In this document: one piece after another, positions 8,815-40,629 of the stretch
Layout: each line of letters begins with the position of its first letter
How positions within the stretch are numbered: the stretch's first letter is position 1
Source: Planctomycetota bacterium
GTDB taxonomy: Bacteria > Planctomycetota > J058
Direction of reading: 5' to 3'
Assembly (NCBI GenBank): GCA_016765095.1
Contig: JAESQQ010000051.1
Span: 1 to 40,686, forward strand
Length of the DNA stretch: 40,686 bases
The notes under the pieces: generated by a model
Databases searched by the model: none
Told to the model about the DNA's origin: nothing
The model's input: only the letters and a program-made list of their open reading frames with translations
Position numbers and translations under genes: made by a program

Positions 8815-8897
8815 GGGGCTCCTCGTTGCTCAAGAGGCTACAGGCAAATGGCCCTTGGCGGACCTTGCTCGCGCCGGCGCTGACTGAGATCTGCTAT

Positions 8898-10544: not shown

Positions 10545-10558
10545 TGTAGAGGATCAAC

Positions 10559-19249: not shown

Positions 19250-19660
19250 GTGCCCGGCCCGACTCCGGTCGCGGATTGTCCCTCAGCTACCGCGTCCTGC
19301 TTGAGAACTTTGGCATTCCATTCCATGTAGATATGTTGGCATGTTCTCTGACAAAGCAAGAGCCTTACGATAGTCACGCCAGCGTGGAGGTTTACCTGGA
19401 CGGAGCTTGGGTATCTCAGATCCCACCTTCAACGTCATGCACCTTCACGAGAACAGGTACATCGGCTATCTGGAGCTGAAACGACTCCTCGCACAGGGCA
19501 TTAAGATCAAGGCGACTACAAACGGGAACCAACTCCTGCCGGGGAAGGGCGACCTGGCTACCTACTACATTGGAATTGAGGAGCTTGCAAAGTTCGTCTT
19601 CATCCAAGGCGTGAGGCTGTTTGGGGCGCACCGCGAAAAGTCGACGCTTTGTGACGGCGT
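19250..19660 (+). pseudogene. transglutaminase-like protein remnant, frameshifted and truncated (boundaries approximate)
   Basis: Two overlapping frames join as ...YRVLLENFGIPFHVDMLACSLTKQEPYDSHASVEVYLDGAWV|ISDPTFNVMHLHENRYIGYLELKRLL..., giving transglutaminase His and Asp blocks across a 1-nt frameshift; followed directly by the transposase region. Confidence 0.55.
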
Positions 19661-22878: not shown

Positions 22879-24204
22879 TCAGTGCGAGTCGGTGGCGGAC
22901 TGACTCCAGCTGTGCTCACAGACATAGCGACCGAGTGAACCCATGAACCCGGTCCCCGTCCGGTAGTAATCCGCAGTGAGGACAGTCAGCTCGCCGGCCG
23001 AGAGCACTTCGTCTTGAAGGACGTCTGGGAGCTCGGATTCGGGCTCGTAGCAGCTCCCGCGGACCTCGAGCGTGTACCGACCTGGGGCCAGGGCGAGCTT
23101 CCCGATCGTGCAGCGAACGCTCCCTTCGGCAGGCAGCTTGGCGAAGTCTTGGCCCCGGTGCTTCGTCCAGCAGCAGGTCAAGACCTGTCCATCCGGATCG
23201 CGAAAACCGACAGAGAACGCAACGCGAGAGAGGGGCTCTTCGTCTCGGCAGACGTATTCCAAGACGATGTCGAGACTTCCTCCCAGATGAACTTCCTGGA
23301 CAGCATTCTCGTGGCGATCGAGGACAGTGACCGAGCGGAATCGAAACCTGCCTCGGCCCAGGCGCTGGTCGGTTTGGCCGAGGTCGGTCGGGCCCTCAGA
23401 CACTCTGGGTGGTGCGAGCATGGTCTCGAGGTAGTTGCGCACGGTCTCGGCGGGCGGTCCTATCTCGCGAATCCGCCCGTGTTCCATCCAAACCACCCGG
23501 TGGGCGAGCTCAGTGATAGAGCCCATGAGGTGGCTTACAAAGAGGATCGTCTGTCCCTCGCTGCTGGCTTCCTTGAGCTTTCGATACGAGCGCTGGATAA
23601 ACTCCGCGTCTCCAACGGCGAGGACCTCGTCGATCAGAAGAACCTCGGGCTCAAGGTGCGCTGCGACCGCGAACGCCAAGCGAACGTACATCCCGCTCGA
23701 GTATCGCTTGACGGGAGTATCAATCATTCGCGCGACACGGCTCCCCGCGAACTCGACGATCCGATCGAAGAGTAGATCGATCTCTCGGCTCTTCAGCCCG
23801 AGGATCGCCCCGTTCATGTAGACGTTCTCGCGTCCGGTCAATTCGGGGTGGAACCCGGTCCCGACTTCCAACATGCTTCCGACTCGACCTCGCAGCTCGG
23901 CCCAGCCCGAAGTCGGCTCCGTGATCCGCGAGAGGATCTTGAGGAGCGTACTCTTGCCACTCCCGTTGTGCCCCACGATCCCCAGGAACTCTCCCTTTTG
24001 GACCTCAAACGAGACGTCCTTGAGCGCCCACAGGAGTTCGTCCTCCCGGGGAGCACGAAGCTTGCTCCTCGCGTAACGGAAAGGGCCCGCAGACACCTGA
24101 GCCATTCGGCCAATGAGACTCGCGGCTGGCTCGACCTTCTCGTAGCCCATTCCGATCCGGTAGAGCTTGGAGAGTTTTTCGACGACGATTGGGGGCTGGC
24201 TCAT
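22879..24204 (-). CDS. wzt: polysaccharide ABC transporter ATP-binding protein (Wzt-like) with C-terminal extension
   Basis: Walker A GHNGSGKSTLLK, signature YSSGMYVRLAFAVAAH, Walker B VLLIDEVLAVGD; ~170-aa C-terminal beta-rich extension; ATG at 24202-24204. Confidence 0.92.
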   Translation of the reverse strand: MSQPPIVVEKLSKLYRIGMGYEKVEPAASLIGRMAQVSAGPFRYARSKLRAPREDELLWALKDVSFEVQKGEFLGIVGHNGSGKSTLLKILSRITEPTSGWAELRGRVGSMLEVGTGFHPELTGRENVYMNGAILGLKSREIDLLFDRIVEFAGSRVARMIDTPVKRYSSGMYVRLAFAVAAHLEPEVLLIDEVLAVGDAEFIQRSYRKLKEASSEGQTILFVSHLMGSITELAHRVVWMEHGRIREIGPPAETVRNYLETMLAPPRVSEGPTDLGQTDQRLGRGRFRFRSVTVLDRHENAVQEVHLGGSLDIVLEYVCRDEEPLSRVAFSVGFRDPDGQVLTCCWTKHRGQDFAKLPAEGSVRCTIGKLALAPGRYTLEVRGSCYEPESELPDVLQDEVLSAGELTVLTADYYRTGTGFMGSLGRYVCEHSWSQSATDSH

Positions 24205-24205
24205 A

Positions 24206-25078
24206 TCAGGCGATGTCCACAATGCTTCGCTCGGCACGGCGGAACATCAATGCGCCGGTGAATAGCAGGATCACGGCGACCGCGAACGAATAGAGCAACA
24301 TGAGGCCCGGTGGGTCGCCAACGCCCAACAAGGACCAGCGGAATCCCTGGATGATGTTGGTCATTGGGTTGAGTCGGTAGAGCAAGCGGTAGCCCTCAGG
24401 CACCATCTGCAACTTATAGACAATCGGTGTGAGGTACATCCAGCCGAGCAACACGAAATCGAGTGCGTGTCCCACGTCGCGGTAGTGGACGACCCAGGGA
24501 GCGCACCAGAGGCCGATCCCCAGAGCGAGCATCCCGGTTAGCAGAATGTAGACAGGCAGGAGCAAGAGCGCCGGCCCGATGGGCCACGCGTAGTGGATCA
24601 TCATCGGGAAGAGTATGAGGAGCGTGACCAAGAAGTTAATCGTGCTCGTGCCAAAGAACACCAAGGGCACACAGAGCCGGGGAAAGTAGATCTTCTCCAT
24701 CAGTGCTTTGAAGCTGACGATCGACGTCGAAGAGGACTTCACGATTTCGGTGAAGTAGGTCCAAACAACGACGGCCGAGTAGTTGAAGAGTGGGTAGGGA
24801 AGCTCTCCTTCCGCCGGGAGCTTGGCTATGAGTCCGAAGATCAAAGTGTAGACCAGCGCCATCGCGGCCGGCCGAATGATCATCCAGAGGGGGCCAAGGG
24901 CCATCTGGCGGTAGTCTATCTTCACCTGACGAACCAGGAGGAACCCAATCATCTCCCGATAGCCCCAGAGTTCCTTGAGGCCAAGACTGAGCCGGGTTCT
25001 GGGCTCGATCCGAATCACTTCCTCAGCCGCGGCGGAGGTGTGCTCCGAGGCGGGGGGAGGTGGGGATTCGCTGCTCAT
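24206..25078 (-). CDS. wzm: polysaccharide ABC transporter permease (Wzm-like, ABC-2 type)
   Basis: DYRQMALGPLWMIIRPAAMALVYTLIFG, ...MYLTPIVYKLQMVPEGYRLLYRLNPMTNIIQGFRW. Confidence 0.92.
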   Translation of the reverse strand: MSSESPPPPASEHTSAAAEEVIRIEPRTRLSLGLKELWGYREMIGFLLVRQVKIDYRQMALGPLWMIIRPAAMALVYTLIFGLIAKLPAEGELPYPLFNYSAVVVWTYFTEIVKSSSTSIVSFKALMEKIYFPRLCVPLVFFGTSTINFLVTLLILFPMMIHYAWPIGPALLLLPVYILLTGMLALGIGLWCAPWVVHYRDVGHALDFVLLGWMYLTPIVYKLQMVPEGYRLLYRLNPMTNIIQGFRWSLLGVGDPPGLMLLYSFAVAVILLFTGALMFRRAERSIVDIA

Positions 25079-25226
25079 AGGGCTCGCTGTTGGGAGGAGG
25101 GGCGTCTGTGGGCGGCCGCCGCCTCGCTCCCATTGCCCTGGAATGGTAGGAAAATCTCAGAGCAGGGACAACCGTTGGGTTGGGAGGAGGAGCCCTCTCG
25201 AATCCGGATTTGAGTCGGCTCAGGGG

Positions 25227-27755
25227 TCAGGAGAGCGCCTCCGCAAGGAGACGGCGCAGGATCTCTTCCTCGCGCTCCCAGCTCAGCTCGTGTGCGGCTG
25301 CAAGCGCACGCTTCTGGAGTCCGGCGTAGGCCTCCTCGTTGGTGAGCAACTCTCGGATTGCGGCCGCCGTCGAGGCCGGATCTTGAGGGTCGATCGCGAG
25401 TCCAAACCCGTAGCGCTCAGCCAAGCGCTCCATCTCCGGGAGTCGAGGGTAGAGGACTGGGAGCCCGGCGCTGATGCACTGAAAGAAACCGTTGGGGAGG
25501 CAATGCACGTAGTTTTCGGAGAGACCGAAGTAGATCACCAACCCCGCGTTGGCGGTGCGAATGTGGGGGACGACTTCGAAGGGCTTGACCGGTCCGCAGA
25601 GGTGAACCCGCCCCTCCAATCCGAGTCGTCGAATCAGCTCAGCGCGCGATTCGTGCCCAGCTCCCAGGAACGCGACGTGGACATTTTCAGGCAGCTGGCG
25701 GAGAGCTTCTAAGGTTTGCTCGACGGCTTGGCCCGCCTTCGCGTTTCCTACCACGACCAAGAGGAAGTCTTCTTCGCTGAGTCCGAGCCGAGCCCGGATG
25801 TCCTCGGCTGGCTCCACCTCCAGACGGGCGTCCTGGACGTTCCTGAGCAAAGTGAAGGGGCGCTGAAAGGCCTCCTCTTGCAGGAGCGCGACTCCTTGGC
25901 TAACGGTCACCACTTCCGCGGCGAACTTGACTGAGCAACGCTCAAGCAGGTCGAAGAAGGGAAGGATGAAGTAGCGAATCGTGGGAATCTGTGAACTCCT
26001 GTGTTGCATTCGTCCGTAGAAGTCATGGGCGTCATAGACATAGCGCGCCCCGTTCTGTCGGCACTTCCAATAGACCGCTGGGAAGAAATACGGGCTGTGC
26101 ATGTAGTAGAGGTCCGCGTCCGGCAACGACTCAAGCGCCGGCCAGAGATACTGGGCGGCATAGGCGCGATAGATCGCGGCGACCTGTCGCACGAGGCGTT
26201 GAGGTGCGCGGCTGGCGTGCAAGGCGTCGTAGAGGCCGCGGGGCAACAAAGGCGAACGGACGCCTGGGCTCCGCGAAGAGCGCAACATGCGCAGCTCGAA
26301 CAGGAGCTCTTCCTCGCGCAAGGAGCTCCGCTTGCCCTCGAAGAGCTGAGAGTGGTAGCCGAGTCGGCTCACCGACGCGGCCTGCTTGAACGTTCTGCTG
26401 TCCCGCTCCACAGGAAGAGGAGTCAGGGTCACCACACGCAGCGGACCAGGCGTCTTGGCACGGGGAGGGATCTTTCCGAGCCTCTTAAGCGCTCCAAGTG
26501 CGTGACCGATGAGCCTCCCGGACGCCTGGGTTCTGCGGAGGGCTTTTCTCGGCGCGGCTGCCAGAGCTGCGACTCCCTCCAGGCGGGACCAAGACCACGC
26601 GTCTCGCGCGCGCAGCTCAAGGAGCAGTGCCTTGGTAGGAGGGCTCCCCGAGCCTCCCCGGCCGCTGGCATCTCTGGCCCCAGAGCCGTGCTCAACAAGT
26701 TCCACCAGATTTCGGTAGGAGTTGAGGTTCGAGCCAACGAGCTCCGCGTAGGCGCAGTCCGTGATTCGCTTGCGCTCGACGTCCGAGAGGACGACTTCTA
26801 GCACCTCGTCAAGGTTGCTGAGATCCGGCTGGAGCTCAAGGTAGTGCCGCCCGGACTGAAGGACACCGCCGTAGTCCCCAGAGACCAAGACGAGGCACGT
26901 TCGCGCGGCGCAGGCTTCGAGGTGACTCGGACGCAGCGCGGAGGCGGCTAGGTTGGCGCCCTCGCCGCTCAAGCGGCGAGCGAGGTCGAGCGGCGCGAGG
27001 TCGGGGAGTGAGCTCGCCTCTCGGCGAAGGGTTCCTCCGGGGTCGAGTTGGTCGAAACCGGCGGCGGCGCTGACGAAATAGCGCGAGGCGAGCAGGAAGC
27101 GCCACCAGGAGTCGCCAGCAAAGTTGGAGCGGGCGCCTGGGGCGCGATCGCAGCGCAACACCCCGCGCTCGAGCGCGCGGCGCTGGACGGCTTCGACGGT
27201 GACGAACTCGCGCACTCCGCTCAGACCGAGCCAGGGCTGAGGCGAGTCTGGCGCCAGCGCCAGGTCGTTGAGTCGCGTCAAGTCGCTCCCAGGGAACTCG
27301 AGACGATTCACCGTCCGCTCGTCAAGGTATGCCCCTTGGCGCTCCAGCAATCGAACGCCTTCTTGGACGAGGCTTCTGTAGAGGACCTCAGCCACCTCCG
27401 GGGAAACCGCGGAAACGACGCAGTCGACTCGGAGCCTGCGCAGGGAACTCACGAGGCGCTCGGTGTCCGAAGCGGAGTTGCGCGGGAGGGCTACGCGAGT
27501 CGCCTCGACCTGCGCGAAGGGATCAAGGCGGCTGAGGGCACGCTCGAATTCGCCGTCTTGGAAGCGGAGTTCGAAGAGGCTCCCGTCGAAGACGATGAGG
27601 TCCCAGCGGGCTCGGAGGACCTCGGGTGAGGGCTCCCCCCTGCCAAGGTTGATGTGGGCCACGCGCCCTGTCGAATGGCGCCGGAAGGCGTAGAGCTGGT
27701 CCCGCTCGGGCGAGGGGATCGGCTGGAGGTGGTGGTAGAGAACAAGGATGTGCAT
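25227..27755 (-). CDS. two-domain glycosyltransferase: CgeB-like N-terminal half plus GT4-like C-terminal half
   Basis: N half MHILVLYHHLQ... and RPSHLEACAARTCLVLVSGDYGGVLQSGRHYLEL; C half RVVTLTPLPVERDSRTFKQAASVSRLGY..., YVYDAHDFYGRM, LPNGFFQCISAGLPVLYPRLPEMERLAERYGFG. Confidence 0.85.
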   Translation of the reverse strand: MHILVLYHHLQPIPSPERDQLYAFRRHSTGRVAHINLGRGEPSPEVLRARWDLIVFDGSLFELRFQDGEFERALSRLDPFAQVEATRVALPRNSASDTERLVSSLRRLRVDCVVSAVSPEVAEVLYRSLVQEGVRLLERQGAYLDERTVNRLEFPGSDLTRLNDLALAPDSPQPWLGLSGVREFVTVEAVQRRALERGVLRCDRAPGARSNFAGDSWWRFLLASRYFVSAAAGFDQLDPGGTLRREASSLPDLAPLDLARRLSGEGANLAASALRPSHLEACAARTCLVLVSGDYGGVLQSGRHYLELQPDLSNLDEVLEVVLSDVERKRITDCAYAELVGSNLNSYRNLVELVEHGSGARDASGRGGSGSPPTKALLLELRARDAWSWSRLEGVAALAAAPRKALRRTQASGRLIGHALGALKRLGKIPPRAKTPGPLRVVTLTPLPVERDSRTFKQAASVSRLGYHSQLFEGKRSSLREEELLFELRMLRSSRSPGVRSPLLPRGLYDALHASRAPQRLVRQVAAIYRAYAAQYLWPALESLPDADLYYMHSPYFFPAVYWKCRQNGARYVYDAHDFYGRMQHRSSQIPTIRYFILPFFDLLERCSVKFAAEVVTVSQGVALLQEEAFQRPFTLLRNVQDARLEVEPAEDIRARLGLSEEDFLLVVVGNAKAGQAVEQTLEALRQLPENVHVAFLGAGHESRAELIRRLGLEGRVHLCGPVKPFEVVPHIRTANAGLVIYFGLSENYVHCLPNGFFQCISAGLPVLYPRLPEMERLAERYGFGLAIDPQDPASTAAAIRELLTNEEAYAGLQKRALAAAHELSWEREEEILRRLLAEALS

Positions 27756-27931
27756 TTGAATCTAGCGGTTGATCGAGTGTAGCCACGGACGGAGTTCGTG
27801 CGGGAGAGGCGAGTCAGAGCGCCAGGACCCCAGCGTTACTTCCACGCGCGAGGACTTATCGGGAAGAGTCGCCGGATTCCTCGCGCTCTTGCGTGGGCTG
27901 AAGAGCCAGAGTGGTCTGACTTCGAATTCGC

Positions 27932-29899
27932 TCACGCCTCTCCCCAGTGTTGACGCGCCCAGAGCTTGGTGCAGATCACTCGCCATGTGATGAACTCTTG
28001 ATTGATCGAACGGTGAGGGGACTCGAAGAGGGCTCGCACGCCCTTGGTGTCGAACCACTCCTCCTCATGTTCGTTGGCTGGTTCGAGGAGGCGGGAGAAA
28101 TGGCGAGCGGCGTAGCCGAAGGTCAATTCGGGGGCCGAGCGGAAGCCGATCTTGTCGCGCCGCGAGCGGACTCCCTCCGGCAGGATCCCTTTCATGGCCT
28201 CGCGCAACACGAGCTTCGTCTCTGTCCCACGTAGCCTGAGTTGATCAGGAAGTGAGAGGCAGAATTCGGCCAACTCGTGGTCTAGAAAGGGAACCCGCGC
28301 TTCGACGGAGTGCGCCATCGAGTTTCGGTCTTCGAATCGCAAGAGAGCGGGCAACACCGCGGAAGCCACGTCGTGGGCCAGGCGAGCAGAGAGCTGGTCG
28401 GAGGCAGGGGCCGCGCTGAAGTCGAGGGCTTCGTCCTTCCAAGTCCTTGCCCAGCTCGACGAGAGGAAGACGTCTGGCTGAACGGCTTGAGGTGTTGGTT
28501 GCGCGTGGCTCTCCGGCAGGTAACGACCCAACACGCGGAGCATGTGGCCATAGGCGCCCTTTAGCCTCGCGGGCACGACGTCTCCGATCGCCTCGCGGCG
28601 CGAGAGGAGAGGCGTGCCGTTGAGCTTCTGGAACTCGCGCAACACACGGTGAGCTTCCCTGAGCCTTCCCTGCTTGATGAACGAGCGCACGAGCGGGTCG
28701 AAGTACATGTGATATCCGCCCAAGATCTCGTCAGCGCCCTGGCCGTCGAGCACCACCTTGAGACCTTCCTGGCTGACTCGCTCGAACACGAACCACTGGG
28801 CCACGATGCTCGCTGAACCGAAGGGCTCGTCTTGGTGGCGGAGGATCCGGCCCAGGGCCTCGTCAAGGGAGGCTGGGTCGACTCGGATCTGGACTAGTCG
28901 AGACCCCGCAGCCTTCGCCACGGGAACCATGTACTTGTACTCGTCGAACGGCGTATCGCTCGCGCAGTAGCCGAACGAGATGTGCCGCTGTGAGCCGAGT
29001 CGTGCGCTCGTCGTCACGATCGAGGAGGAGTCGAGCCCCCCGCTGAGACAAGTCCCGATCGGCACGTCGCTGCGGAGGTGGAGGTTGAGTGAGCTCTCGA
29101 AGAGCTCTTGAAAGCGCGCGACTGCGTCGGGCAAGGAACCCGAGAAGGAGGGGAGGTGGTGAGGGCTCCAGTAGCGCTCTCGCCGGACGCTCTCCGGCGC
29201 GTCCAAAGAGATCTCCATGAACGTCCCGGGTGCGAGGGCTTCGACCCCAGCGAAGAAGGTGCGCGAGCTTCGATCGGTGCAGCCCGTCAGCAGAAATGAG
29301 AGCACCTGGGCTTCGTCAGGGCGAGCCACATACCCCGGCAGGGCCAAGAGCCCCTTGACCTCCGAGGCGAAGGCCCATCCGCCGCGGTGTCGAGTCAGGA
29401 GGAGGGGCTTGATCCCAAAGCGATCCCGCGCGAGCAATACCGTGCGCGCCTTCGAGTCGTAGATCGCGAGCGCGAACATCCCTCGCAACCAGCGGAGAAA
29501 GTTCGTCCCCCACTCGAGGTAGGCTCGCAGGACGACCTCCGTGTCTCCAGACGACACAAATTGGTGTCCCAGCCCTCGAAGCGTCTCGCGAAGCTCCACG
29601 TAGTTATAGACCTCTCCATTGAAAACCAACGCGCAGCCGCGCTCAGGGTCGAGCATTGGCTGGGCTGAGTCCTGGCTGAGGTCTAGAATCGCGAGTCGGC
29701 GGTGGACGAGAGCGACCTCGCCCTTTGCACAGGCTGAGGCCTTAGGCGGCTGATCGTGCCACACCTCCGGCTCGCCTCCCGCGCGCGAGACCGCGAAGCC
29801 AAACCCGTCGGGACCCCGGTGTTCGAGGCGCTCGCTCAGGCGCTCGAGGTCACCTGGCGTGAAAGGACCCGCGCCGATCAAGCCTGCGATCCCGCACAC
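27932..29899 (-). CDS. asnB: asparagine synthase (glutamine-hydrolysing)-like amidotransferase, copy 2
   Basis: MCGIAGLIGAG, LEHRGPDGFG, VFNGEVYNYVELR, CLSGGLDSSSIV. Confidence 0.93.
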   Translation of the reverse strand: MCGIAGLIGAGPFTPGDLERLSERLEHRGPDGFGFAVSRAGGEPEVWHDQPPKASACAKGEVALVHRRLAILDLSQDSAQPMLDPERGCALVFNGEVYNYVELRETLRGLGHQFVSSGDTEVVLRAYLEWGTNFLRWLRGMFALAIYDSKARTVLLARDRFGIKPLLLTRHRGGWAFASEVKGLLALPGYVARPDEAQVLSFLLTGCTDRSSRTFFAGVEALAPGTFMEISLDAPESVRRERYWSPHHLPSFSGSLPDAVARFQELFESSLNLHLRSDVPIGTCLSGGLDSSSIVTTSARLGSQRHISFGYCASDTPFDEYKYMVPVAKAAGSRLVQIRVDPASLDEALGRILRHQDEPFGSASIVAQWFVFERVSQEGLKVVLDGQGADEILGGYHMYFDPLVRSFIKQGRLREAHRVLREFQKLNGTPLLSRREAIGDVVPARLKGAYGHMLRVLGRYLPESHAQPTPQAVQPDVFLSSSWARTWKDEALDFSAAPASDQLSARLAHDVASAVLPALLRFEDRNSMAHSVEARVPFLDHELAEFCLSLPDQLRLRGTETKLVLREAMKGILPEGVRSRRDKIGFRSAPELTFGYAARHFSRLLEPANEHEEEWFDTKGVRALFESPHRSINQEFITWRVICTKLWARQHWGEA

Positions 29900-29949
29900 G
29901 CTAGGGACGCCTCCCGCTCAGGGGACGGCGCTGGCTCAAGGCGGGCGGC

Positions 29950-32460
29950 CTAGGAGAGGTCGTCACGAAACAACACCCTAGAAATGAGAGCCTCAAGGAC
30001 CTGCTCCTCATGCTCCCAGGTCAATTCGCGCGCCGCGAGGTTCGCTGCGGCTTGGAGCAATTCGCGCGATTCGCCTGGCTTGAGGAGGGCCCGAATTCCC
30101 GCTTCGACGGACTCCGAGTCGAGAGGATCGATCGCCACTCCAAAGCCGTAGCGCTCGGCCAGGCGCTCCATCTCGGGGAGACGCGGGTGGAGAATGGGGA
30201 GCCCGGCGCTCACACACTGGAAAAAGCCGTTCGGGAGGCAATTGCGATAATTCTCGGAGAGGTCGAAGTAGAGGACCAAGCCTGCGTCGGCGCTCCGAAT
30301 GTGAGGCACGACCTCGAAGGGCTTGACCGGCCCGCAGAGGTGAACTCGCGCGCTCAACCCGTGAGCCGCCACCATCGGGCCTCGAGACTCGTGGCCTCCG
30401 CCCAAGAAGGCCACGTGGACGTGATCGGGGAGGCGCCGAAGCGCCTTCAGGGTGGGCTCGACCGCTTGCCCTTGCTTCGCGTTCCCGACCACCACGAGCA
30501 AAAAGTCGGCGGCGGACAAGTGAAGTCGGTCCCTCAGTTCGCTGGGGGGGCTCGCCTCGAGACGAGCGTCTTGGACGTTTCGTATCAGCTGGAAGGGCCG
30601 CCCGAAGGCCGCCTCTTGGAGGTCCGCAACCCCCTTGCTGACCGTCACGACCTCAGCCGCGTATTTGACCGAGAGCCGCTCCAAGAGGTCGTAAAAGGGC
30701 TGCTGGAAGTAGCGGACCGTCGGGGTGAGCGACTCTCGCTGATGGATCCGACTGTAGAAGTCGTGAGCGTCATACACGAACTGTGCACCTTCGAGTTGAC
30801 ACTTGAGCAGGATCGCCGGCAGGTAATACGGCGAGTGAACATAGTAAAGCGGCGCTGAAGGGAGCGTTCGGAGAGGGGTCAGGAAGTAGTTCCGAGCGTA
30901 GGACGAGTAGAACTGCCAAAGGTGGTGGACCAAGCGCGCTGGGGCGCCGACGGCATGGACCGCACTTCGGATTGGGGCCGGCGTGAGGGGCGGCCCGGCC
31001 TCCAGAATACGGAGGTCGAAGGGAAGCTCTTGCCCGTTGAAGTTGCTCGGCTGGCCCTCGCAGAGGACCGAGGTGAAGCCGAACCTCTCTAGCGAAGCGG
31101 CCTGCTTGTAGGTCCGGCTGTCCCTCTCGACGGCGAGCGGGGTTACGGTCACGACTCGTTCGCGGGGGACCTCACGCCCTTTGCGGTGAAGCCGTCGGGC
31201 TCCCTCCAGGGCCCGTCGAATCAGGGCCGCGGGGCGGAGCGCGCGACGCACCTGGGGCTTGAGCTTTCCGTGCCGCTTCGCGAGTCGGAGTCTCGCCACG
31301 CCGTCCATGGCGGCCATTCGGTAGTAGGTCGGGCTCGCGACGCCGGTGGCCGGAGCCGGCACGCTACCGAATGTCGTGGTCAGGATCGTCTTCACGAAGC
31401 CGCGGTAGGTAGCGAGTCCAGAGGCGACGACCTCTTCGTAGGCCTGCTCCGTGATCTCCGCGCGGAGCTTGTCGTCTCGCACGAGCTGCAGGACCTCCTC
31501 GAGATTGGAGAAGTCGCGAGCGAGCTCGAGGTAGTGCCTGCCCGGCACGAGGAGCCCGTTGTAGCGACCAGCGACGAGAACCTGACAGGTCCGCGTGGCG
31601 CAGGCTTCGAGGTGACGCGGGGAGAGCGCGAAGAGCTGCAACTCTCCGTCCCGTCCTGGGAAGCAGGCGGTCTCGATCTCAGCGAAGGTCGCGTCCGGAT
31701 GTTCGGCCACGAACGTGTCTGTGCGCTCGCGCAGCTTGCCGTCCGTGTCGAGAAGGCTCGCCCCGCCCTCGACGCTGATCGTGTAGCGACAACGCAGCAA
31801 GAACCGATACCAGTCTGTACCGTGGAAGGTGTCTTCTTGGCGAGTGGAGATGTCGATGCGCAAGCCGTGCCGGGGGCCGCCCTCCTGGAAGGCCTCTGCG
31901 ATCTGAGTCTTGAGGAGGCCGTGGCTGCCGAGCCAAGCCTGCGCGTGGTATGCCCGATAGCCAACGTCGATCGGGCGATTCCGGATCCGCGAGGGCGCGG
32001 CGAGAGAGGCCACGCTCATTTCGTCGAGGTATCCGGTCAGCACCTCGTGGATCCGCACTCCGTCCTCTTGGAGGGCAGGGTAGATCTTGGGCCACTCCGT
32101 AGGAGGGGAGACCGAGAACACAATGTCGACGCCGAACTCGCGGAGGAAGGCGTTTAGGACCCCGGTGTGCGCGAACTCATCTTGGGGCAGCGCGATCTTG
32201 GTTCCGGGAACCCCCGCTAACCCTCTGATTTCCTCTACCGCTCCTGCAAAGGTCGGGGGGTGCCAGCGGATCGAGAGGAAGGTCGTGTGAAACACGATCA
32301 GGTCCCACGAGTGCTTTCGGACGAAGTCCGGCAAGCCGTGGAGGGCGACGTTGAGGTAGTGAACGCGCTGACCGGAGTAGCGGCCAAGGGAATAGAGGTG
32401 CTCCTCGATCGTCGACCGGAGCGGGGAGACGGTGTTGTGATAGACGACGAGGATGTTCAC
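29950..32460 (-). CDS. two-domain glycosyltransferase, paralogue of 25227..27755
   Basis: GTG start (32458-32460) giving MNILVVYHNTVSPLRSTIEEHLYSLG...; SPRHLEACATRTCQVLVAGRYNGLLVPGRHYLEL; C half collinear with the paralogue. Confidence 0.85.
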   Translation of the reverse strand: MNILVVYHNTVSPLRSTIEEHLYSLGRYSGQRVHYLNVALHGLPDFVRKHSWDLIVFHTTFLSIRWHPPTFAGAVEEIRGLAGVPGTKIALPQDEFAHTGVLNAFLREFGVDIVFSVSPPTEWPKIYPALQEDGVRIHEVLTGYLDEMSVASLAAPSRIRNRPIDVGYRAYHAQAWLGSHGLLKTQIAEAFQEGGPRHGLRIDISTRQEDTFHGTDWYRFLLRCRYTISVEGGASLLDTDGKLRERTDTFVAEHPDATFAEIETACFPGRDGELQLFALSPRHLEACATRTCQVLVAGRYNGLLVPGRHYLELARDFSNLEEVLQLVRDDKLRAEITEQAYEEVVASGLATYRGFVKTILTTTFGSVPAPATGVASPTYYRMAAMDGVARLRLAKRHGKLKPQVRRALRPAALIRRALEGARRLHRKGREVPRERVVTVTPLAVERDSRTYKQAASLERFGFTSVLCEGQPSNFNGQELPFDLRILEAGPPLTPAPIRSAVHAVGAPARLVHHLWQFYSSYARNYFLTPLRTLPSAPLYYVHSPYYLPAILLKCQLEGAQFVYDAHDFYSRIHQRESLTPTVRYFQQPFYDLLERLSVKYAAEVVTVSKGVADLQEAAFGRPFQLIRNVQDARLEASPPSELRDRLHLSAADFLLVVVGNAKQGQAVEPTLKALRRLPDHVHVAFLGGGHESRGPMVAAHGLSARVHLCGPVKPFEVVPHIRSADAGLVLYFDLSENYRNCLPNGFFQCVSAGLPILHPRLPEMERLAERYGFGVAIDPLDSESVEAGIRALLKPGESRELLQAAANLAARELTWEHEEQVLEALISRVLFRDDLS

Positions 32461-32518
32461 GGGATCCCTTGAAGAGTCTCGATACTGAGGGCGAATGCCT
32501 GGGAGGCCCGGGGCAATC

Positions 32519-33448
32519 TCAGCCACGCTGCTTGAGGTGGGTGAAGGTCTCGCCGACGCCGTGCGCTTCGTACCAGGCGACGAGGCGGGCGACGCCGTCG
32601 GCGAGATCGATCGTGGGCTCCCAGGAGAAGGTCTCCTTGGTCGCGCTCGGGTCGAGGAGGAGCGAGGCCAAGTCGTCTTCGAGGGGATCGACGACGTCGG
32701 GCGGGGAGTCCGGCGTGATCCCGAGGGCCGCGCTGACTTGCGCGAAGATCTCCTCGATCGTGACGTCGTTTCCGCTCGAGAGGTTGAAGTAGCCGGTCGG
32801 GGCGTCTGTGGGGAGCATGGCTGTCAAGACGCGCATGAAGTCGTCGAAGTAGACGAAGTCTCGACGCGTCCTCACGATCGAGCAGGGCTTGCCAGCCTTG
32901 AGGCGCTTGTAGAAGGCGGGCATGGGCCCGGTGTAGGCGCGCGGGCCGTAGACGTTCGCCATTCGGAGCGAGATCCAGGACAGCCCGCTCATTTCGAGGT
33001 AGCGCTCTCCGCCGGCCTTACTGATCGAGTAGCTCGTCCGAGGCCGCAGCGGGTGATCTCGTCGAACAGGCACCTGATCGGGCTGCCCGTAGGCGAGGGC
33101 CGTCTGAAAGTGAACCACCCGCTCAACCGAGCAGCGCTGGCTCGCGCGAACGACGTGGACTGTGCCCAACACGTTGCTGCGAATGTCCTCTTCCCAGTTG
33201 CTCAGATCCTTGTAGGCAGCCGCAGCGTGAATCACGTGGGTCGGCTGAAAGCGGTCGAAGAGCTCGTCGACCAAGGCGCCGTCAGCGACGCTTCCTTCCA
33301 CGACTTCGAGGGAAGCGTGAGCAGCCAGGGACTCGCGCCGACCGGTGGCGAAGTTGTCGAGGACCAAGACCCCGTGGCCTTCCGCCAAGAGATGGTCAGC
33401 GATGTTGGAGCCGAGGAAACCGGCTCCGCCGGTGATCAGGACCTTCAT
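32519..33448 (-). CDS. NAD-dependent epimerase/dehydratase (WbmG/WbmH-like)
   Basis: MKVLITGGAGFLGSNIADHLL, HAAAAYKDLSNWEEDIRSNVLGTVHVV, YSISKAGGERYLEMSGLSWISLRMANVYGPR. Confidence 0.9.
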   Translation of the reverse strand: MKVLITGGAGFLGSNIADHLLAEGHGVLVLDNFATGRRESLAAHASLEVVEGSVADGALVDELFDRFQPTHVIHAAAAYKDLSNWEEDIRSNVLGTVHVVRASQRCSVERVVHFQTALAYGQPDQVPVRRDHPLRPRTSYSISKAGGERYLEMSGLSWISLRMANVYGPRAYTGPMPAFYKRLKAGKPCSIVRTRRDFVYFDDFMRVLTAMLPTDAPTGYFNLSSGNDVTIEEIFAQVSAALGITPDSPPDVVDPLEDDLASLLLDPSATKETFSWEPTIDLADGVARLVAWYEAHGVGETFTHLKQRG

Positions 33449-33557
33449 GTGGAGACCTTCGTCGGAGACCCGCAGGAGGCGGGGCCTCAGCTGGCCTGGC
33501 GCCCCTCACTGAGGGTCTAGTTAGGAGAATTCGGCGGCTGAGGCCGCGACCGCAACG

Positions 33558-34493
33558 CTAGGACTTGGCTTCTTCCAGCTTGAGGTGGGTGTAGAACTCC
33601 TTGAGTCCCTTCTCCTTGTACCACTTGACGGCCGCCGAAATAATGTCCTCCAGCGGCGTCTCGGCGCGCCACTCGAAGTTGGCGTGAGTTTCGCTCGGGT
33701 CGAGGAGGATCGTGGGGGCGTCGTCGGGGCCCGGGTCGGCCTCCTTGCAGGGGACGTCGAGCCCGAGCGCCTTGGCGACGCCGTCGTAGAGCTCCTTGAT
33801 CGCGGTGTCCTGGCCAGTTGAGGCGTGGTAGGTCCCGGACGGACCCTTGCCGTCTAGCGCCAAGCGCACGAGGCGGACCAAGTCGTCGACGAAGATGAAG
33901 TCGCGCCGGGTGCGGAACACCGTGCACTCCTTCCCGGTCGTGAGGCGCTTGAAGAAGGCGGGGAGCGGGCCGCTCAGGTTGCGGGGACCAATGATGTTCG
34001 CGAGACGAAGGGTCACGTAGTTGAGCCCGCTCATTTCGAGGTATTCCTCGCCAGCCGTCTTGCTGATCGCGTAGGAGCAGTCGGGAAGGCGGGGGTGCTT
34101 GAGCGTGATCGGGTGCTCGAGTGGCTTGCTCCCGTAGCAGAGCGCGGTCTGGAAGTAGACGAAGCGCTTGACCTCGTGGGCCATGGCCGCCTTGACCACG
34201 TTCGCCGTCCCAAGCGCGTTGGTCAGGGTGTCTTCGGTCCAGTTTTCGGGATCCTTGTAGCTCGCGGCGGCGTGAGCGACTTGCTCGGGCTTGAAGCGGT
34301 GGAAGATCGCCAGCACGGCCGCGCCGTCGGCGATCGTCTCGTTGACCACCTCGAGCGAGTCGTGCGGCTCGAGGTTGTCGGCTCGTCCCGTCGAGAGGTT
34401 GTCGATCACGAGGACTTGGTGGCCGTCGGCCAGCAAGCTCTCCGTGAGGTGAGATCCAATGAAGCCAGAACCGCCAGTAATGAGGACGCGCAT
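33558..34493 (-). CDS. NAD-dependent epimerase/dehydratase (WbmG/WbmH-like), paralogue of the neighbouring gene
   Basis: MRVLITGGSGFIGSHLTESLL, HAAASYKDPENWTEDTLTNALGTANVV, YAISKTAGEEYLEMSGLNYVTLRLANIIGPR; ATG at 34491-34493. Confidence 0.9.
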   Translation of the reverse strand: MRVLITGGSGFIGSHLTESLLADGHQVLVIDNLSTGRADNLEPHDSLEVVNETIADGAAVLAIFHRFKPEQVAHAAASYKDPENWTEDTLTNALGTANVVKAAMAHEVKRFVYFQTALCYGSKPLEHPITLKHPRLPDCSYAISKTAGEEYLEMSGLNYVTLRLANIIGPRNLSGPLPAFFKRLTTGKECTVFRTRRDFIFVDDLVRLVRLALDGKGPSGTYHASTGQDTAIKELYDGVAKALGLDVPCKEADPGPDDAPTILLDPSETHANFEWRAETPLEDIISAAVKWYKEKGLKEFYTHLKLEEAKS

Positions 34494-34694
34494 GTCACCT
34501 CCGAGGGGGGGTCGCCGCGAGTGGAGCGGGATCGTAGGAGTCGCACTGAGCTCAGTCAACCCCGCAGGGAAAGCCTCAGAGCGCTGGATACGCGGGCTCC
34601 TGGGCGCGATGAGCGGCCGAGAGTTAGCCGACTCGAACAGCCAACATCACACCCCCTGATCAGCGAGGCGGCGCCAAAAATCTTGGGGAGCGCG

Positions 34695-35900
34695 TCAACA
34701 CGCCGAGAGCAGATCGAGCACGCGTTTCACCCGGTGTGCGTGGGTGTGGGATTCGAGTGCGTGGGCAAGGCCCTGATCGGCGATCCGCTCCCGCTCCTGT
34801 GGATCTTGGAAGCGAGCCAAGACCTCGTCCAGGTTGCTGAAATCTGGCTCCAAGGCGAGGTAGTGGACGTCTGGCTTGAGGAGATCGTTGTAGCGACCAC
34901 GGAGGAGGATCTGGCAAGTTCGCGTCCCAAGCGCGTCGAAGTGACGCGAAGAGATGCACTTGCCGTTGGCCTGGGTCAAGGGATCGGGCTCTGGGAAGAA
35001 GCGGCTGCGAATCTCCTCAGCGTCGGCTCGCTCGTAGACCGGATCTGGGCCTCGGTGCCCCCTCGCCACGAGCTGCGCTGTGATCCCGCGGCAGACCGTG
35101 GCTGCCCGGCGCTGGAGCCAACCCGGCGGGACGCGCTTTTCGAGTCCGAACAGGGCCAGGCTCGGGTTTCGCAGCGATAGCCAGTCAACAATGCGATTGA
35201 CGGTCCGGTCGTCTCGCTCGACGAAGCGAGATCCAGCTTCGGTCGCGATCGTCCCCCGGCACTGATCGAGGTAGCGAGGCCACTCTTCTCCGCTGAGGCG
35301 CTCCCCGAGAGGGAGGTCGACCACGACCGGGAGGTCGCCTCGGTTGAAGCGCTCATAGACCCGATAGCGGTCGCTGTCGCCCAGGAGCGGGGTGTAGCGA
35401 GCCGAACGGCCCCCGAGGTCGAAGCGGCGCTCGGCGTGGGGCGTCAGAGCTTGGAAGCGGGCCGGGTTGAGTGCGTGGGGAATGCTCTCAACCCGGGCCT
35501 CAGGGACCTCGGCGTAGAGCCAGGCTGCGGTCTCGGGCAGGAGCTGGCTCGCGACGAGGTCTGGGCGGAGGCGCTCGAGGAGCCCGATTCGATCGGCCAT
35601 TCCGAGGTGGCTGCGAGGCGAGTTGTATTCGTTCCCCACAAAGACACAGAGCCGAGCCGCGCCGCGGTCGCGGAGCCAGGGCACGAGGGGATCGAGGTAG
35701 ACGAGGTCGTCAGCGAGGAGGGAGTGCAGGACAACTACGGCGTCGTGCTCGCGGACCAAGCGGCGGGCCTCGACGGCCCGACCCGGCGTCGCCAAGTCGA
35801 CTTCGGTGACCTCGGCCTCGGCGGCGAGGAAGGCGTCCCGCCAGTCGAGGTAGTAGGAGTAGCTGTGGTTGTAGAGCGAGTGGAGGAGGAGGAGCCTCAC
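34695..35900 (-). CDS. CgeB-like glycosyltransferase-type protein (single domain)
   Basis: GTG start giving VRLLLLHSLYNHSYSYYLDWRDAFLAA...; SSRHFDALGTRTCQILLRGRYNDLLKPDVHYLALEPDFSNLDEVL. Start overlaps the upstream epimerase stop (GTGA). Confidence 0.75.
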   Translation of the reverse strand: MRLLLLHSLYNHSYSYYLDWRDAFLAAEAEVTEVDLATPGRAVEARRLVREHDAVVVLHSLLADDLVYLDPLVPWLRDRGAARLCVFVGNEYNSPRSHLGMADRIGLLERLRPDLVASQLLPETAAWLYAEVPEARVESIPHALNPARFQALTPHAERRFDLGGRSARYTPLLGDSDRYRVYERFNRGDLPVVVDLPLGERLSGEEWPRYLDQCRGTIATEAGSRFVERDDRTVNRIVDWLSLRNPSLALFGLEKRVPPGWLQRRAATVCRGITAQLVARGHRGPDPVYERADAEEIRSRFFPEPDPLTQANGKCISSRHFDALGTRTCQILLRGRYNDLLKPDVHYLALEPDFSNLDEVLARFQDPQERERIADQGLAHALESHTHAHRVKRVLDLLSAC

Positions 35901-36964
35901 GAACCGGCGAGGGCCTCGAGCTGAGCCTGGTGCTTGGCCATGCAGCCCTCGATCCGAGGCAGGTTGTCCTGCATCCAAGCCACCGTCCGAGCCAGTCCCT
36001 CCTCCAGAGGGACCTTCGCCTCGAAACCGAGTTCAGTGCGCGACTTCTCGGGCGAGCCGAAGCGCTTCCCAGACGTGTCCCAGTCCCTGCGGGGGAGGAC
36101 CTCGAACCCACCCGCACTCTTGGTCAGAGAGACAATGTGCTCCGCGAGCTCCTTGATCGAGGACTCCCGTCCGCTGGCAATGTTGTAGGCCTCACACGGC
36201 TTGCCGCGCAGGGCGCAGGCGATCAGGCCCTGGCAAATGTCCTCGACGAAAATGAAGTCCCGCGTGGACGCGCCGGCGTTGTGGAGCGGGATCACCTCGC
36301 CCTTGAGCGCCTTGTAAATGAAGGTCGGCGTCACGTTGCGCCACACGGTGTGCGGCGTCCCGCGCCACTGGCCGGCGCCGAGGACTTCGCCGGGCCCGTA
36401 GACGTTTTGAAAGCGAGCCCGCACCACAGGGAGGCCGTGCTGCTTGTGGAAGTAGACCGCGTAGAACTCGCCGACGAGCTTGCTGATCGAGTAGGGGCTG
36501 TCTTGATCGAGCGAGAGCGGAGCCTCCTCGGTCGTGGCCGAGGCCGCGTCGTAGGTCTTCTTAGCGGCCGCGCAGCCAGCACCGGAGTAAACGACCCGCT
36601 CGAGGCGCTTGAAGCCAGAGAGGTGATTGAAGAGCTTGAGGGTCGTGAGCAGGTTGTTGTCGTGGTCCGCGATCGGATCGTGGATCGAGCTTTGGTTGCC
36701 GTGAAAGCAAGCCAGGTGGAACACGGTGTCGAACTCGTCGCGGATCTCTCCGAGGATCGCGTCGTCGGCGATCGAACCGACTCGCAGTTCGAGGCGCGCC
36801 TCGTCGGACGGCAGGTTCTCGCGCTCCGAGGAGAGGAGGTTGTCGACCACGACGACCTCGACTTCGGGTGAGCCTGAGAGGAGCAGCCGAACGAGGTTGC
36901 TCCCGACAAAGCCCGCTCCGCCCACGACGAGCACGCGTTTCCCGTTGAATGCTCCTGTGTCCAT
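35897..36964 (-). CDS. NAD-dependent epimerase/dehydratase (WbmF-like)
   Basis: GKRVLVVGGAGFVGSNLVRLLL, HLACFHGNQSSIHDPIADHDNNLLTTLKLF, YSISKLVGEFYAVYF. Confidence 0.9.
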   Translation of the reverse strand: MDTGAFNGKRVLVVGGAGFVGSNLVRLLLSGSPEVEVVVVDNLLSSERENLPSDEARLELRVGSIADDAILGEIRDEFDTVFHLACFHGNQSSIHDPIADHDNNLLTTLKLFNHLSGFKRLERVVYSGAGCAAAKKTYDAASATTEEAPLSLDQDSPYSISKLVGEFYAVYFHKQHGLPVVRARFQNVYGPGEVLGAGQWRGTPHTVWRNVTPTFIYKALKGEVIPLHNAGASTRDFIFVEDICQGLIACALRGKPCEAYNIASGRESSIKELAEHIVSLTKSAGGFEVLPRRDWDTSGKRFGSPEKSRTELGFEAKVPLEEGLARTVAWMQDNLPRIEGCMAKHQAQLEALAGS

Positions 36965-36991
36965 GTGTTTTCCTCAGGCCCGTCTTGGGCT

Positions 36992-38908
36992 CTAGTCAAG
37001 CAGCGCGCGAAAGCGGGGGGCGTCGTCAACGAAGGTCTGGTACCAGAGCTCGAGGCTCAGGAGTCCCCACACCTTGCGACCGAACTGGCTCTCACCAGAA
37101 ATCGCGCGCTCGATCGCGTCGTGGTTGAAATACCTCCGCTGGCGAGCCCGTCCCGTCGCGAAAATATCGCCCACAAACTCGCGCAGCTCGCCCTTGATCC
37201 ATTGGTTGAGCGGAACAGGGAAGCCTGCCTTGTCCTTGCGATCCAAGATCTCTTGGGGGAGCTCGTCGCGGTGGGCATTGATCAGGACGCGCTTGAGTGC
37301 GCCTTCTTGGAACTTGATGTTGGCGGGCATCGTGGCGGCGAACTCGACGATCGGGTGATCGAGGAAGGGCACCCGCGACTCGAGCCCGTGGGCCATGCTC
37401 ATTCGATCTTCGACTTGGAGGAGCGCTGGGAGGAGTGTCTTGAAGTCGAAGTGGGTCATCAGATCGAAGTAGGACTCGTGGCCGACGTTCTTGCCCAAGA
37501 AGATCTTCTTGAACGAGTCGAAGGGGGAGTAGTCGCTTGGGAGTTCGTCCCAGAGGATCTCGTCCTTCATCGAGGGAGCGCGGTTGATCAAGCGGTAATA
37601 GCGCTCGTCGATCGGGCCGAACAGCCCCTCCTTCCAGAAGGTCTTGAGGAGCGGCTTGTAGCCCTCGAGGAGGCGGAGGTTCGGAATGATCGACTCGTAG
37701 GTGACGACGAAGTCACCCTTGTCCATGGTCCCCTCGATCGCGCCCTTAATGCAGCGCTCGAAGTAGGCGATCAAGTAGCGAACGTAGCCACCGAAGATCT
37801 CGTCGCCACCTTGACCTCCAAGGACGACCTTGCGGTGCTTGGCGGCGAGCTTCGAGACGTGGTATTGGGGGAACGAGCCCGGCCCGGCGACGGGATAGTC
37901 CAGGTGGTAGATCACGTCCCGGATCGAGTCGGCGAAGTCCGCAGCCGTGAAGGTCTGCTCGTGGAGCGTGAACCCACTCCTCTTTGCGAGGGCCCGCGCG
38001 TAGGGGCTCTCGTCATAGACCGGAGCCTCCGCGAACTTCCCGTTGAAGCCTAGGAACTCGTGGTCCGGTTGCATGCGCGCGGCGATCGCGGCCACGATTC
38101 CCGAGTCGACACCTCCGCTGACGTAGGACCCGACCGGGACGTCTGCGCGAAGGTGAACGCGGAGCGAGTCCTCGACGAGCTCCCGGAGGCGCTCCTCGAA
38201 GTAGCGACCGGTGTGCTTCCAGTCGAGGTCGTAGTAGACCTCCCAGTAGCGCTTGACCTCGTGACTGCCGTCGCGTCGCACGACGAGCGTGTGGCCAGGC
38301 TGGAGCTCCTGGACACCCTTGAACAGGGTCTTGCCCTCGAGGCAGAGCTGGAAGTCGAGATAGTCACGGAACGCGAGGGGGTCTGGCTCGACCTCGGGCA
38401 GGAAGGGGACGAGCGCCTTGACCTCCGATGCGAAGTAGAACGTGCCCTCAATCACGGCGTAATAGAAGGGCTTGATTCCGAACCGATCGCGCGCACAGAA
38501 CAGCTCTTGTTGCTTCTCGTCCCAGAGCGCGAACGCGAACATTCCGCGCAGGTGATTGACGCAGTCGCGTCCCCAGTGGCGGTAGCCGGCCAGGATCGCC
38601 TCGGTGTCCGAGGTCGTCTTGAACTGATCGACGCCGAGCTCCTCGCGGAGCTCTACGTAGTTGTAGATCTCGCCATTTTGAACGATCACGTTCTTCGACA
38701 CCGAGTCGTGCATGGGCTGGGCGCCGTGATCGAGGTCGATAATGCTCAGGCGGCGGTGCCCGAATCCGACTCGGCCGTCGGGGTGCTCCCACACGCCTTC
38801 GCCGTCCGGCCCGCGGTGGCGGAGGAGCTCATTCATGACTCCCAAGTGGCGAGGGAGTGGGCCCTTGTAGGGCCTGTGAGGGCTAAAGATCCCGGAGATT
38901 CCGCACAC
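36992..38908 (-). CDS. asnB: asparagine synthase (glutamine-hydrolysing)-like amidotransferase, copy 3
   Basis: GTG start at 38906-38908 gives MCGISGIFSPHR (Cys2); LRHRGPDGEGVW, VQNGEIYNYVELR, SYVSGGVDSGIVAAI. The longer ORF to 39289 is spurious upstream read-through. Confidence 0.93.
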   Translation of the reverse strand: MCGISGIFSPHRPYKGPLPRHLGVMNELLRHRGPDGEGVWEHPDGRVGFGHRRLSIIDLDHGAQPMHDSVSKNVIVQNGEIYNYVELREELGVDQFKTTSDTEAILAGYRHWGRDCVNHLRGMFAFALWDEKQQELFCARDRFGIKPFYYAVIEGTFYFASEVKALVPFLPEVEPDPLAFRDYLDFQLCLEGKTLFKGVQELQPGHTLVVRRDGSHEVKRYWEVYYDLDWKHTGRYFEERLRELVEDSLRVHLRADVPVGSYVSGGVDSGIVAAIAARMQPDHEFLGFNGKFAEAPVYDESPYARALAKRSGFTLHEQTFTAADFADSIRDVIYHLDYPVAGPGSFPQYHVSKLAAKHRKVVLGGQGGDEIFGGYVRYLIAYFERCIKGAIEGTMDKGDFVVTYESIIPNLRLLEGYKPLLKTFWKEGLFGPIDERYYRLINRAPSMKDEILWDELPSDYSPFDSFKKIFLGKNVGHESYFDLMTHFDFKTLLPALLQVEDRMSMAHGLESRVPFLDHPIVEFAATMPANIKFQEGALKRVLINAHRDELPQEILDRKDKAGFPVPLNQWIKGELREFVGDIFATGRARQRRYFNHDAIERAISGESQFGRKVWGLLSLELWYQTFVDDAPRFRALLD

Positions 38909-38928
38909 GAGGGGAGTGTAAGGGCAAC

Positions 38929-38953
38929 CTCGGTCAGCGCCACGCTGACCGAG
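38929..38953. promoter_or_regulatory. perfect inverted repeat (11-bp arms, 3-bp spacer) in a divergent intergenic region
   Basis: CTCGGTCAGCG-CCA-CGCTGACCGAG, 20 bp upstream of the asnB (copy 3) start and ~105 bp upstream of the wbpB-like start. Confidence 0.8.
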
Positions 38954-39058
38954 CGTGCGCAAGCGCGGTCGCCGCTGAGCATGACTGGCGGTGTTTCCTC
39001 TAGCGGTGGGCTGGTCTATCCTCTCGCCCCTAAGTCTCGTGTGGAGAAGACGACCTTC

Positions 39059-40039
39059 ATGACGACCTCTAAGAACTTCGCCCTCGTCGGCGCCGCGGGC
39101 TTCGTGGCGGCCCGCCACATGCGCGCCATTCGAGACACGGGCAACAAGCTGGTCGCTACCGTTGACCCCCACGACAACGTCGGGGTGATCGACAGCTACT
39201 TCCCCGACGCGCGTTTCTTCACCCAGATCGAGCGCTTCGATCGCCACCTGGAGAAGCTGCGCCGCAAGGGCGAGGAAGAGCGCGTCCACTACCTGAGCGT
39301 CTGCTCACCCAACTACCTCCACGATGCCCACGTGCGGCTCGCGCTCCGGACCGGCGCACACGCGATCTGCGAGAAGCCGCTCGTGATCAACCCCTGGAAC
39401 CTCGATCAACTGACCGAGCTCGAGGCTGAGCACGACACGAGGATCTACACAGTCCTCCAGCTCCGCATGAACCCCAACCTGATCGCGCTCCGTGAGCGGA
39501 TCTTGGCCGAGGGCAACTCCGGCGGCCGGCGCGAGATCGAGCTGACGTACATCACGCGCCGAGGGTCTTGGTACCTCGTGTCTTGGAAGGGAGACCAGGC
39601 CAAGTCGGGCGGTCTGGCCATGAACCTCGGCGTTCACTTCTTCGACGTCTTGGGTTGGATCTTTGGCCCCGCCGAAGACGCTCAACTCCACCTCGACGAG
39701 CCCCAGCGTATGGCCGGCGTGGTCCTCTTTCCCGGCGCCCGAGTTCGCTGGTATCTCTCCTGTTCGGGGGACGACCTCCCGCCTGCGGCGACCGAGAAGG
39801 GCCTCACGGCCTGGCGAACCATGCGCGTCGACGGCGAGGAGATCGAATTCTCCGGCAACTTCACCGACCTCCACACGCGCGTTTATGAGGACTTGCTCGC
39901 CGGGGGAGGCTACGGAATCGAAGACGCGCGTCCCTCGATCGAGCTGATCTACAAGATCCGCAACACGCCCCTCACTGCGCCGGGCGACGACGCTCACCCG
40001 CTCCTCAAGGGAGAGGCACTGGGAGGTGCCAAGTCGTGA
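39059..40039 (+). CDS. wbpB: Gfo/Idh/MocA oxidoreductase, WbpB-like (UDP-GlcNAcA 3-dehydrogenase type)
   Basis: KNFALVGAAGFVAARHMRAIRDTGNKLVATVDPHDNVGVIDSYFPDARFFT..., CSPNYLHDAHVRLALR, CEKPLVINPWNLDQL, ELTYITRRGSWYLVSWKGD: close collinear match to remembered WbpB/WlbA sequences. Confidence 0.9.
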   Translation: MTTSKNFALVGAAGFVAARHMRAIRDTGNKLVATVDPHDNVGVIDSYFPDARFFTQIERFDRHLEKLRRKGEEERVHYLSVCSPNYLHDAHVRLALRTGAHAICEKPLVINPWNLDQLTELEAEHDTRIYTVLQLRMNPNLIALRERILAEGNSGGRREIELTYITRRGSWYLVSWKGDQAKSGGLAMNLGVHFFDVLGWIFGPAEDAQLHLDEPQRMAGVVLFPGARVRWYLSCSGDDLPPAATEKGLTAWRTMRVDGEEIEFSGNFTDLHTRVYEDLLAGGGYGIEDARPSIELIYKIRNTPLTAPGDDAHPLLKGEALGGAKS

Positions 40040-40629
40040 GTGTGTTCGTTCACGAGAGCGCCTTCCTAGACGAGGGGGCCGAGGTCGGCGCCGGGACCAA
40101 GATCTGGCACTTCAGCCACGTCATGGGCGGAGCCAAGATCGGCGCGGGCTGCTCGCTCGGCCAAAACGTGTTCGTGGCCAACCGAGTCACGATCGGCGAC
40201 GGCGTCAAGATTCAGAACAACGTCTCGATCTACGAGGGCGTCGTCCTTGAGGACTACGTGTTCTGCGGGCCGAGCATGGTGTTCACCAACGTCAAGACGC
40301 CCCGCTCCGCGTTCCCAAGAAACACAGCCGACGACTATCACGAGACTCGGGTCTGCCACGGAGCGTCGATCGGAGCGAACGCGACTTTGGTCTGCGGCGT
40401 GACCGTCGGAGCTTGGGCCTTTGTCGCCGCGGGAGCCGTCGTGACCAAGGACGTGACGCCTTACGCCCTGGTGGTCGGGGTGCCGGCCCGACGGATCGGC
40501 TGGGCTTGCAAGTGCGGCGAGACACTCCCCCGCAGCGGGCCCTTGGAGTGCCAGTGCGGTCGCGCGTATGAAGAGTCGGACGGAGTCTTGACCCTGGCTC
40601 GTGAGCCGGAAACTGAGGGCTCGGCCTAG
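40036..40629 (+). CDS. wbpD: left-handed beta-helix N-acetyltransferase, WbpD-like
   Basis: Hexapeptide repeats: VHESAFLDEGAEVGAGTKIWHFSHVMGGAKIGAGCSLGQNVFVANRVTIGDGVKIQNNVSIYEGVVLEDYVFCGPSMVFTNVKTPR; start overlaps the wbpB-like stop. Confidence 0.92.
   Translation: MSVFVHESAFLDEGAEVGAGTKIWHFSHVMGGAKIGAGCSLGQNVFVANRVTIGDGVKIQNNVSIYEGVVLEDYVFCGPSMVFTNVKTPRSAFPRNTADDYHETRVCHGASIGANATLVCGVTVGAWAFVAAGAVVTKDVTPYALVVGVPARRIGWACKCGETLPRSGPLECQCGRAYEESDGVLTLAREPETEGSA

Follow-up and report, generated by a model that had tools for sequence, protein, structure and literature searches.

In a single contig from a Planctomycetota bacterium, two paralogous genes (copies A and B) each fuse an N-terminal glycosyltransferase module of the GT-B fold, which we call N-type, to a C-terminal GT4 module. 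The fused gene was duplicated, and we consider it probable that copy A is a working GT4 enzyme behind a GT-B module that is probably dead, and that copy B is a dual transferase. Computation establishes the fusion, the duplication, the one-sided divergence, the intact GT4 halves, the GT-B fold and the operon context of the pair.

Coordinates (Table 1) refer to the window, the whole stretch of 40,686 nucleotides that was analysed, which is the entire contig carrying both copies (G000:C339). An earlier note on this DNA, made from sequence alone, described a duplicated two-domain architecture with an asnB gene between the copies, and both the architecture and the duplication are supported. Both open reading frames are present where the note placed them and run on the minus strand, the plus strand being interrupted by stops at both positions; the intervening gene encodes an AsnB protein, and the motifs quoted in the note are present.

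Table 1. Features of the fused glycosyltransferase locus, in window coordinates.
Feature	Coordinates	Strand	Remarks
Wzt with Wzt_C carbohydrate-binding domain	22879..24237	(-)	
Wzm (ABC2_membrane)	24206..25078	(-)	
Copy A, fused N-type GT-B + GT4 protein	25227..27755	(-)	842 aa, ATG start; Pfam PF13692/PF00534 in C-half
Copy A C-half, aa 440-842	25227..26438	(-)	GT4 module, conserved; clade's LPNGFFQ motif present
Copy A linker, aa 356-439	26439..26690	(-)	Partly homologous to C-terminal tail of stand-alone N-type genes; model confidence low
Copy A N-half, aa 1-355	26691..27755	(-)	GT-B module, predicted catalytically dead; 19/48 family-conserved residues lost; model keeps fold
AsnB-type amidotransferase between copies	27932..29899	(-)	Most other loci have a homologue beside the stand-alone C-half gene
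Copy B, fused N-type GT-B + GT4 protein	29950..32460	(-)	836 aa from GTG at 32460; ORF extendable to 32526; 858 aa from the upstream GTG
Copy B C-half, aa 435-836	29950..31158	(-)	GT4 module
Copy B N-half, aa 1-361	31378..32460	(-)	Ordinary N-type GT-B module; 45/48 conserved residues kept
SDR closest to Bordetella WbmG	32519..33448	(-)	2pzk E 1e-95
SDR closest to Bordetella WbmH	33558..34559	(-)	2q1w E 2e-102
Stand-alone CgeB-like (PF13524) glycosyltransferase	34695..35978	(-)	Distant relative of N-half
SDR closest to Bordetella WbmF	35897..36964	(-)	2pzj E 3e-137
Second AsnB-type amidotransferase	36992..38905	(-)	52-64% to counterparts in other phyla
WbpB-type dehydrogenase	39068..40039	(+)	3o9z E 3e-98; diamino-uronic acid precursor pathway
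Hexapeptide-repeat acyltransferase	40036..40629	(+)	Adjoins WbpB; putatively WbpD-like, by position

Copies A and B can be aligned from end to end, and aligning the halves separately confirms the note's observation that the C-halves are the more alike. In a codon alignment, identity is 37.6% (133/354) over the N-halves (A residues 1-355), 30% over the linker (356-437) and 63.0% (250/397) over the C-halves (438-842), so that divergence is unequal along the protein (Fisher p = 3e-12 for N-half against C-half). Homologues of each half were gathered from other genomes and trees were built under a site-heterogeneous model, in which the branches leading to A and B measure 2.25 and 0.20 for the N-half, and 0.33 and 0.36 for the C-half. 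Relative-rate tests agree: with a stand-alone Planctomycetota homologue (L022) as outgroup the N-half has 99 changes unique to A and 15 unique to B (p 2e-16), the weakest of six outgroups still gives p 2e-4, and the C-halves of A and B are equal with all eight outgroups. The excess divergence is therefore confined to the N-half of copy A, and the N-half of copy B is an ordinary family member. The N-terminal specificity divergence suggested in the earlier note did not take place as a two-way process.

The AlphaFold model of the copy B N-half (pLDDT 93.5) matches the GT-B enzymes MshA and BshA in Foldseek (E about 3e-7), as well as human POGLUT1 (E 4.8e-5, TM 0.37), and in the full-length model of copy A (mean pLDDT 86.2) the N-half is predicted to be folded with high confidence; structure prediction and search thus give the N-half a GT-B fold. 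Neither of the outcomes by which the note would have been refuted, even divergence or an N-half lacking this fold, was observed. Its family is less easily named. PF13524 scores 19.1 bits on the copy B N-half, below the cut-off of 25, and is not matched as the best stretch on that of copy A; among 15 N-type relatives it matches nine at E <= 0.1 (best 3e-11), and PF05686 matches two, with a best E of just 0.033. A profile of the N-family finds POGLUT1 by sequence at E 6e-6 over only about 40 residues, at an HYxxLxxDxSNxxEVL block common to the N-half and POGLUT1. The note's term CgeB-like is thus roughly right, given the weak PF13524 matches, but loose in view of the short match to GT90 POGLUT1/2, and we place the N-type module between the CgeB/PF13524 and GT90 families. 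A literature search on CgeB found nothing.

To compare the two N-halves with the rest of their family we used 48 alignment columns conserved among ten outsiders, and a corresponding set of 61 columns for the C-half. Copy A has lost 19 of the 48 conserved N-half residues and copy B three, and at the 61 C-half positions the losses are three and two, respectively. Active sites of Rossmann-type folds are built just past the C-terminal ends of strands. With secondary structure taken from the predicted model, not from contacts in a complex, 15 of the 19 residues lost by A lie within five residues past the C-terminal end of a strand, as opposed to 8 of the 29 that are kept (p 0.0009). Conserved glycines and prolines are 89% retained in the same module, and keeping these and the fold while losing strand-end residues is the pattern expected of a folded module without catalysis.

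A different reading is that the N-half of A is still active, with a new donor or acceptor to which selection has reshaped it. Its change has been fast but non-random: conserved sites have been retained at a higher rate than variable ones. The model still shows the fold with high confidence, and E280, H304, Y305 and N314, which probably belong to the donor-site neighbourhood, all remain, so that a weak or altered activity is possible. However, the losses include the strand-end motifs QDE, LTG, YRA and SxR, which are kept family-wide and are retained by stand-alone N-type members from five phyla, and the position of R168, a conserved Arg at the end of strand 1 of the second Rossmann domain, is Ala in copy A. 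The retention of Gly and Pro alongside loss at strand ends fits a pseudoenzyme as well. A loss of catalysis appears to explain these changes better than a switch to a new donor or acceptor, and we regard changed specificity as rather unlikely.

The intact reading frame of copy A is no evidence for a function of its N-half, since a stop there would abolish the GT4 half too. Because translation must pass through it to reach the GT4 module, the N-module, which most likely no longer catalyses, may have been retained in folded form, as a scaffold or to hold glycan. More specifically, and tentatively, it might have given up catalysis to bind glycan or to regulate, holding the growing chain in place for the GT4 module behind it, while the same operon encodes a twin that is still active. 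No A-type orthologue was found among 98 relatives (E <= 1e-20) or when N and C profiles were run against 392 genomes of the phylum, and synonymous sites are saturated. A literature search on pseudo-enzyme glycosyltransferases found nothing.

The earlier note also raised domain swapping, in which a copied C-half would have been joined to another N-type gene, giving A its N-half. The raw identity of the copy B N-half is indeed higher to its stand-alone homologue L022 (53%) than to A (38%), but A and B group as sisters in both trees, with support 99/96 for the N-half and 100/100 for the C-half, which indicates duplication of a gene that was already fused, with no swap of domains. In addition, the N-half of A shares 37.7% identity with that of B and at most 32% with any outsider, making a swap very improbable. 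We give even less credence to a sequence or assembly artefact, in which compensating frameshifts or a mis-binned contig would make the N-half of A look degenerate. The assembly is certainly fragmented (987 contigs, 84% complete, 4.5% contamination); however, copy A aligns across the whole N-half with few gaps, a frameshift is rejected by the lack of matches to the family model in any other frame, and collinearity of the backbone with a congeneric genome at 62-81% identity shows that the contig belongs to the genome. Least credible of all is that the C-halves (63% identical, against 38% for the N-halves) were made alike by gene conversion, so that the N-halves only look faster: fourfold-degenerate sites differ equally in the N-half (61.0%) and C-half (62.3%), which makes both equally old by synonymous change, and the N branch of A is the only one with an excess. 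These results refute conversion unless it were very ancient.

The C-halves are recognisable GT4 modules. That of copy A passes PF13692 (37.6 bits, cut-off 27) and PF00534 (36.8 bits, cut-off 26.4), and that of copy B scores 39.2 bits with PF13524 (cut-off 25; best stretch aa 692-840 of P0002) and 22.4 bits, under the cut-off, with PF13692; the full-length model matches GT4 structures in Foldseek (BshA 6n1x, E 1e-14). The second Glu of the EX7E-type motif is Gln (LPNGFFQ; aa 754-759 in copy A) in all 22 members of the C-half clade, and Glu in both outgroup GT4s; this substitution is a trait of the whole clade and not a defect of copies A and B. GT4 subfamilies vary at this catalytic Glu, and we therefore do not take the Gln to exclude GT4 membership. 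With 58-59 of the 61 conserved residues kept per copy and branches of equal length, the conserved C-terminal activity proposed in the earlier note is supported as a prediction from sequence.

In other phyla the two halves are separate genes, mostly neighbours. In L014, L024 and L025 the GT4 gene is directly followed by the N-type gene; in the Planctomycetota contig L022 the halves are separate too, and the N-type gene comes first, followed by another gene, GT4, AsnB and AsnB. In both fusions the C-terminal tail of the N-family model reaches into the linker, and stand-alone GT4 proteins begin at the same point as the fused C-half, which points to an end-to-end joint. In our reading an N-type gene and a neighbouring GT4 gene were joined end to end, and the fused gene was then duplicated, with the AsnB gene between the copies. 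Searches of 392 phylum genomes and of 21 cross-phylum loci did not turn up this exact pairing; a plasmid search gave partial GT4 matches only, and a search of viral contigs gave none. Fusions of N-type with other GT4 modules have arisen independently and in both orders: L027:3460-6084 (877 aa) joins an N-type module to a more distant GT4, and L032:1023-3938 has the GT4 ahead of the N-type module.

A congeneric contig (G001:C549, locus L045) is collinear in its backbone with window positions 22879-40039 at 62-81% identity (WbpB 81%, AsnB 74%, WbmF-like 77%, CgeB-like 62%, WbmH/G-like 65%), and its transporter genes are inverted relative to the window. In place of copy B, AsnB and copy A it has one stand-alone N-type gene, only 42% identical to the copy B N-half, and no GT4 C-half is present. 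This suggests that the flanks are conserved and that the transferase segment between them can be exchanged as a cassette.

The minus-strand genes lie in the transcriptional order AsnB, WbmF-like, CgeB-like glycosyltransferase, WbmH-like, WbmG-like, copy B, AsnB, copy A, Wzm, Wzt, and from their order and spacing they probably form one transcript; WbpB and the hexapeptide acyltransferase are divergently oriented at the window edge. The open reading frame of the second AsnB was called to 39289 but is over-extended, with homology from residue 129 and the real start near 38905. Much of this module recurs in Alphaproteobacteria, Myxococcota, Bacteroidota, Lentisphaerota and Planctomycetota; the recurring set (L013-L033) comprises AsnB, GT4, N-type glycosyltransferase, second AsnB, WbmH/G/F-like SDRs and a CgeB-like glycosyltransferase, the second AsnB showing 52-64% identity in most of these loci. 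All three AsnB proteins in the window pass the general asparagine synthase model, and none reaches the NCBIfam cut-off of TIGR03108 or TIGR03104, the named polysaccharide amidotransferases. The third is in a second sugar cluster (8826-14728, plus strand) together with an SDR, a DegT aminotransferase and a multi-span membrane protein that has no Pfam match. Elsewhere in the window, an ISKra4-type transposase (19565-21214, minus strand; NF033572 E 3e-45, which falls short of the curated cut-off) adjoins the polysaccharide genes, and a 532-aa protein (17569-19167, minus strand) is predicted to span the membrane three times and matches nothing in Pfam or NCBIfam.

The roles of WbmF/G/H and WbpS-type AsnB proteins elsewhere, together with the WbpB and acyltransferase genes at the window edge, suggest that Wzm/Wzt probably export an O-polysaccharide of amidated 2,3-diamino-uronic acid. 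Copy B would then be a dual transferase that attaches two of the sugars in the repeat unit (or in the adaptor). One or both of them would be a 2,3-diamino-uronic acid derived from WbpB and WbmFGH and amidatable by the AsnB enzymes, and copy A would retain the GT4 reaction.

One pair of paralogues thus displays the gain of a module by fusion and then its probable loss in one copy, and comparison of A with B comes with a built-in control for questions about the role of each module in a dual transferase. Through the cross-phylum module, two transferase families about which little is known become linked to amidated diamino-uronic-acid polysaccharides, and this makes their donors testable. ABC-transporter O-polysaccharide systems routinely use dual-module transferases; what is new is this pairing, its duplication, and the degeneration of one module in one copy.

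Dual-module polymerases of ABC-transporter-dependent O-polysaccharides include WbdA (E. coli O9a / Klebsiella O3), WbbM and WbbB, and in related systems the same modules are found on separate proteins (PMC11231755). Our fusions resemble these in having two glycosyltransferase modules per polypeptide and Wzm/Wzt exporter genes in the locus, but they join an N-type (CgeB/GT90-like) module to a GT4 module, probably act on uronic-acid sugars, and occur as two paralogues, one with a degenerating module. The loss of conserved residues argues against copy A being a polymerase with both modules active. In Bordetella, WbmF/G/H serve the synthesis of UDP-2,3-diacetamido-2,3-dideoxy-L-galacturonic acid, and the wbm O-antigen locus has an ABC exporter and a polymer containing 2,3-diacetamido-2,3-dideoxy-L-galacturonic acid (PMC2279256; wbm locus PMC3849452). 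The three SDRs described here match WbmF, WbmG and WbmH (E 1e-137 to 1e-95) and neighbour each other, with the CgeB-like gene between the WbmF and WbmH homologues, and an ABC exporter is present too; the comparison with Bordetella covers the SDRs and the exporter. WbpS-type AsnB proteins make uronamides (PMC7468200), and a passage of PMC3684757 citing King et al. 2010 has AsnB-like proteins in uronic-acid polysaccharide loci converting the carboxylate to an amide. The AsnB-like proteins reported here similarly sit in a putative uronic-acid polysaccharide locus.
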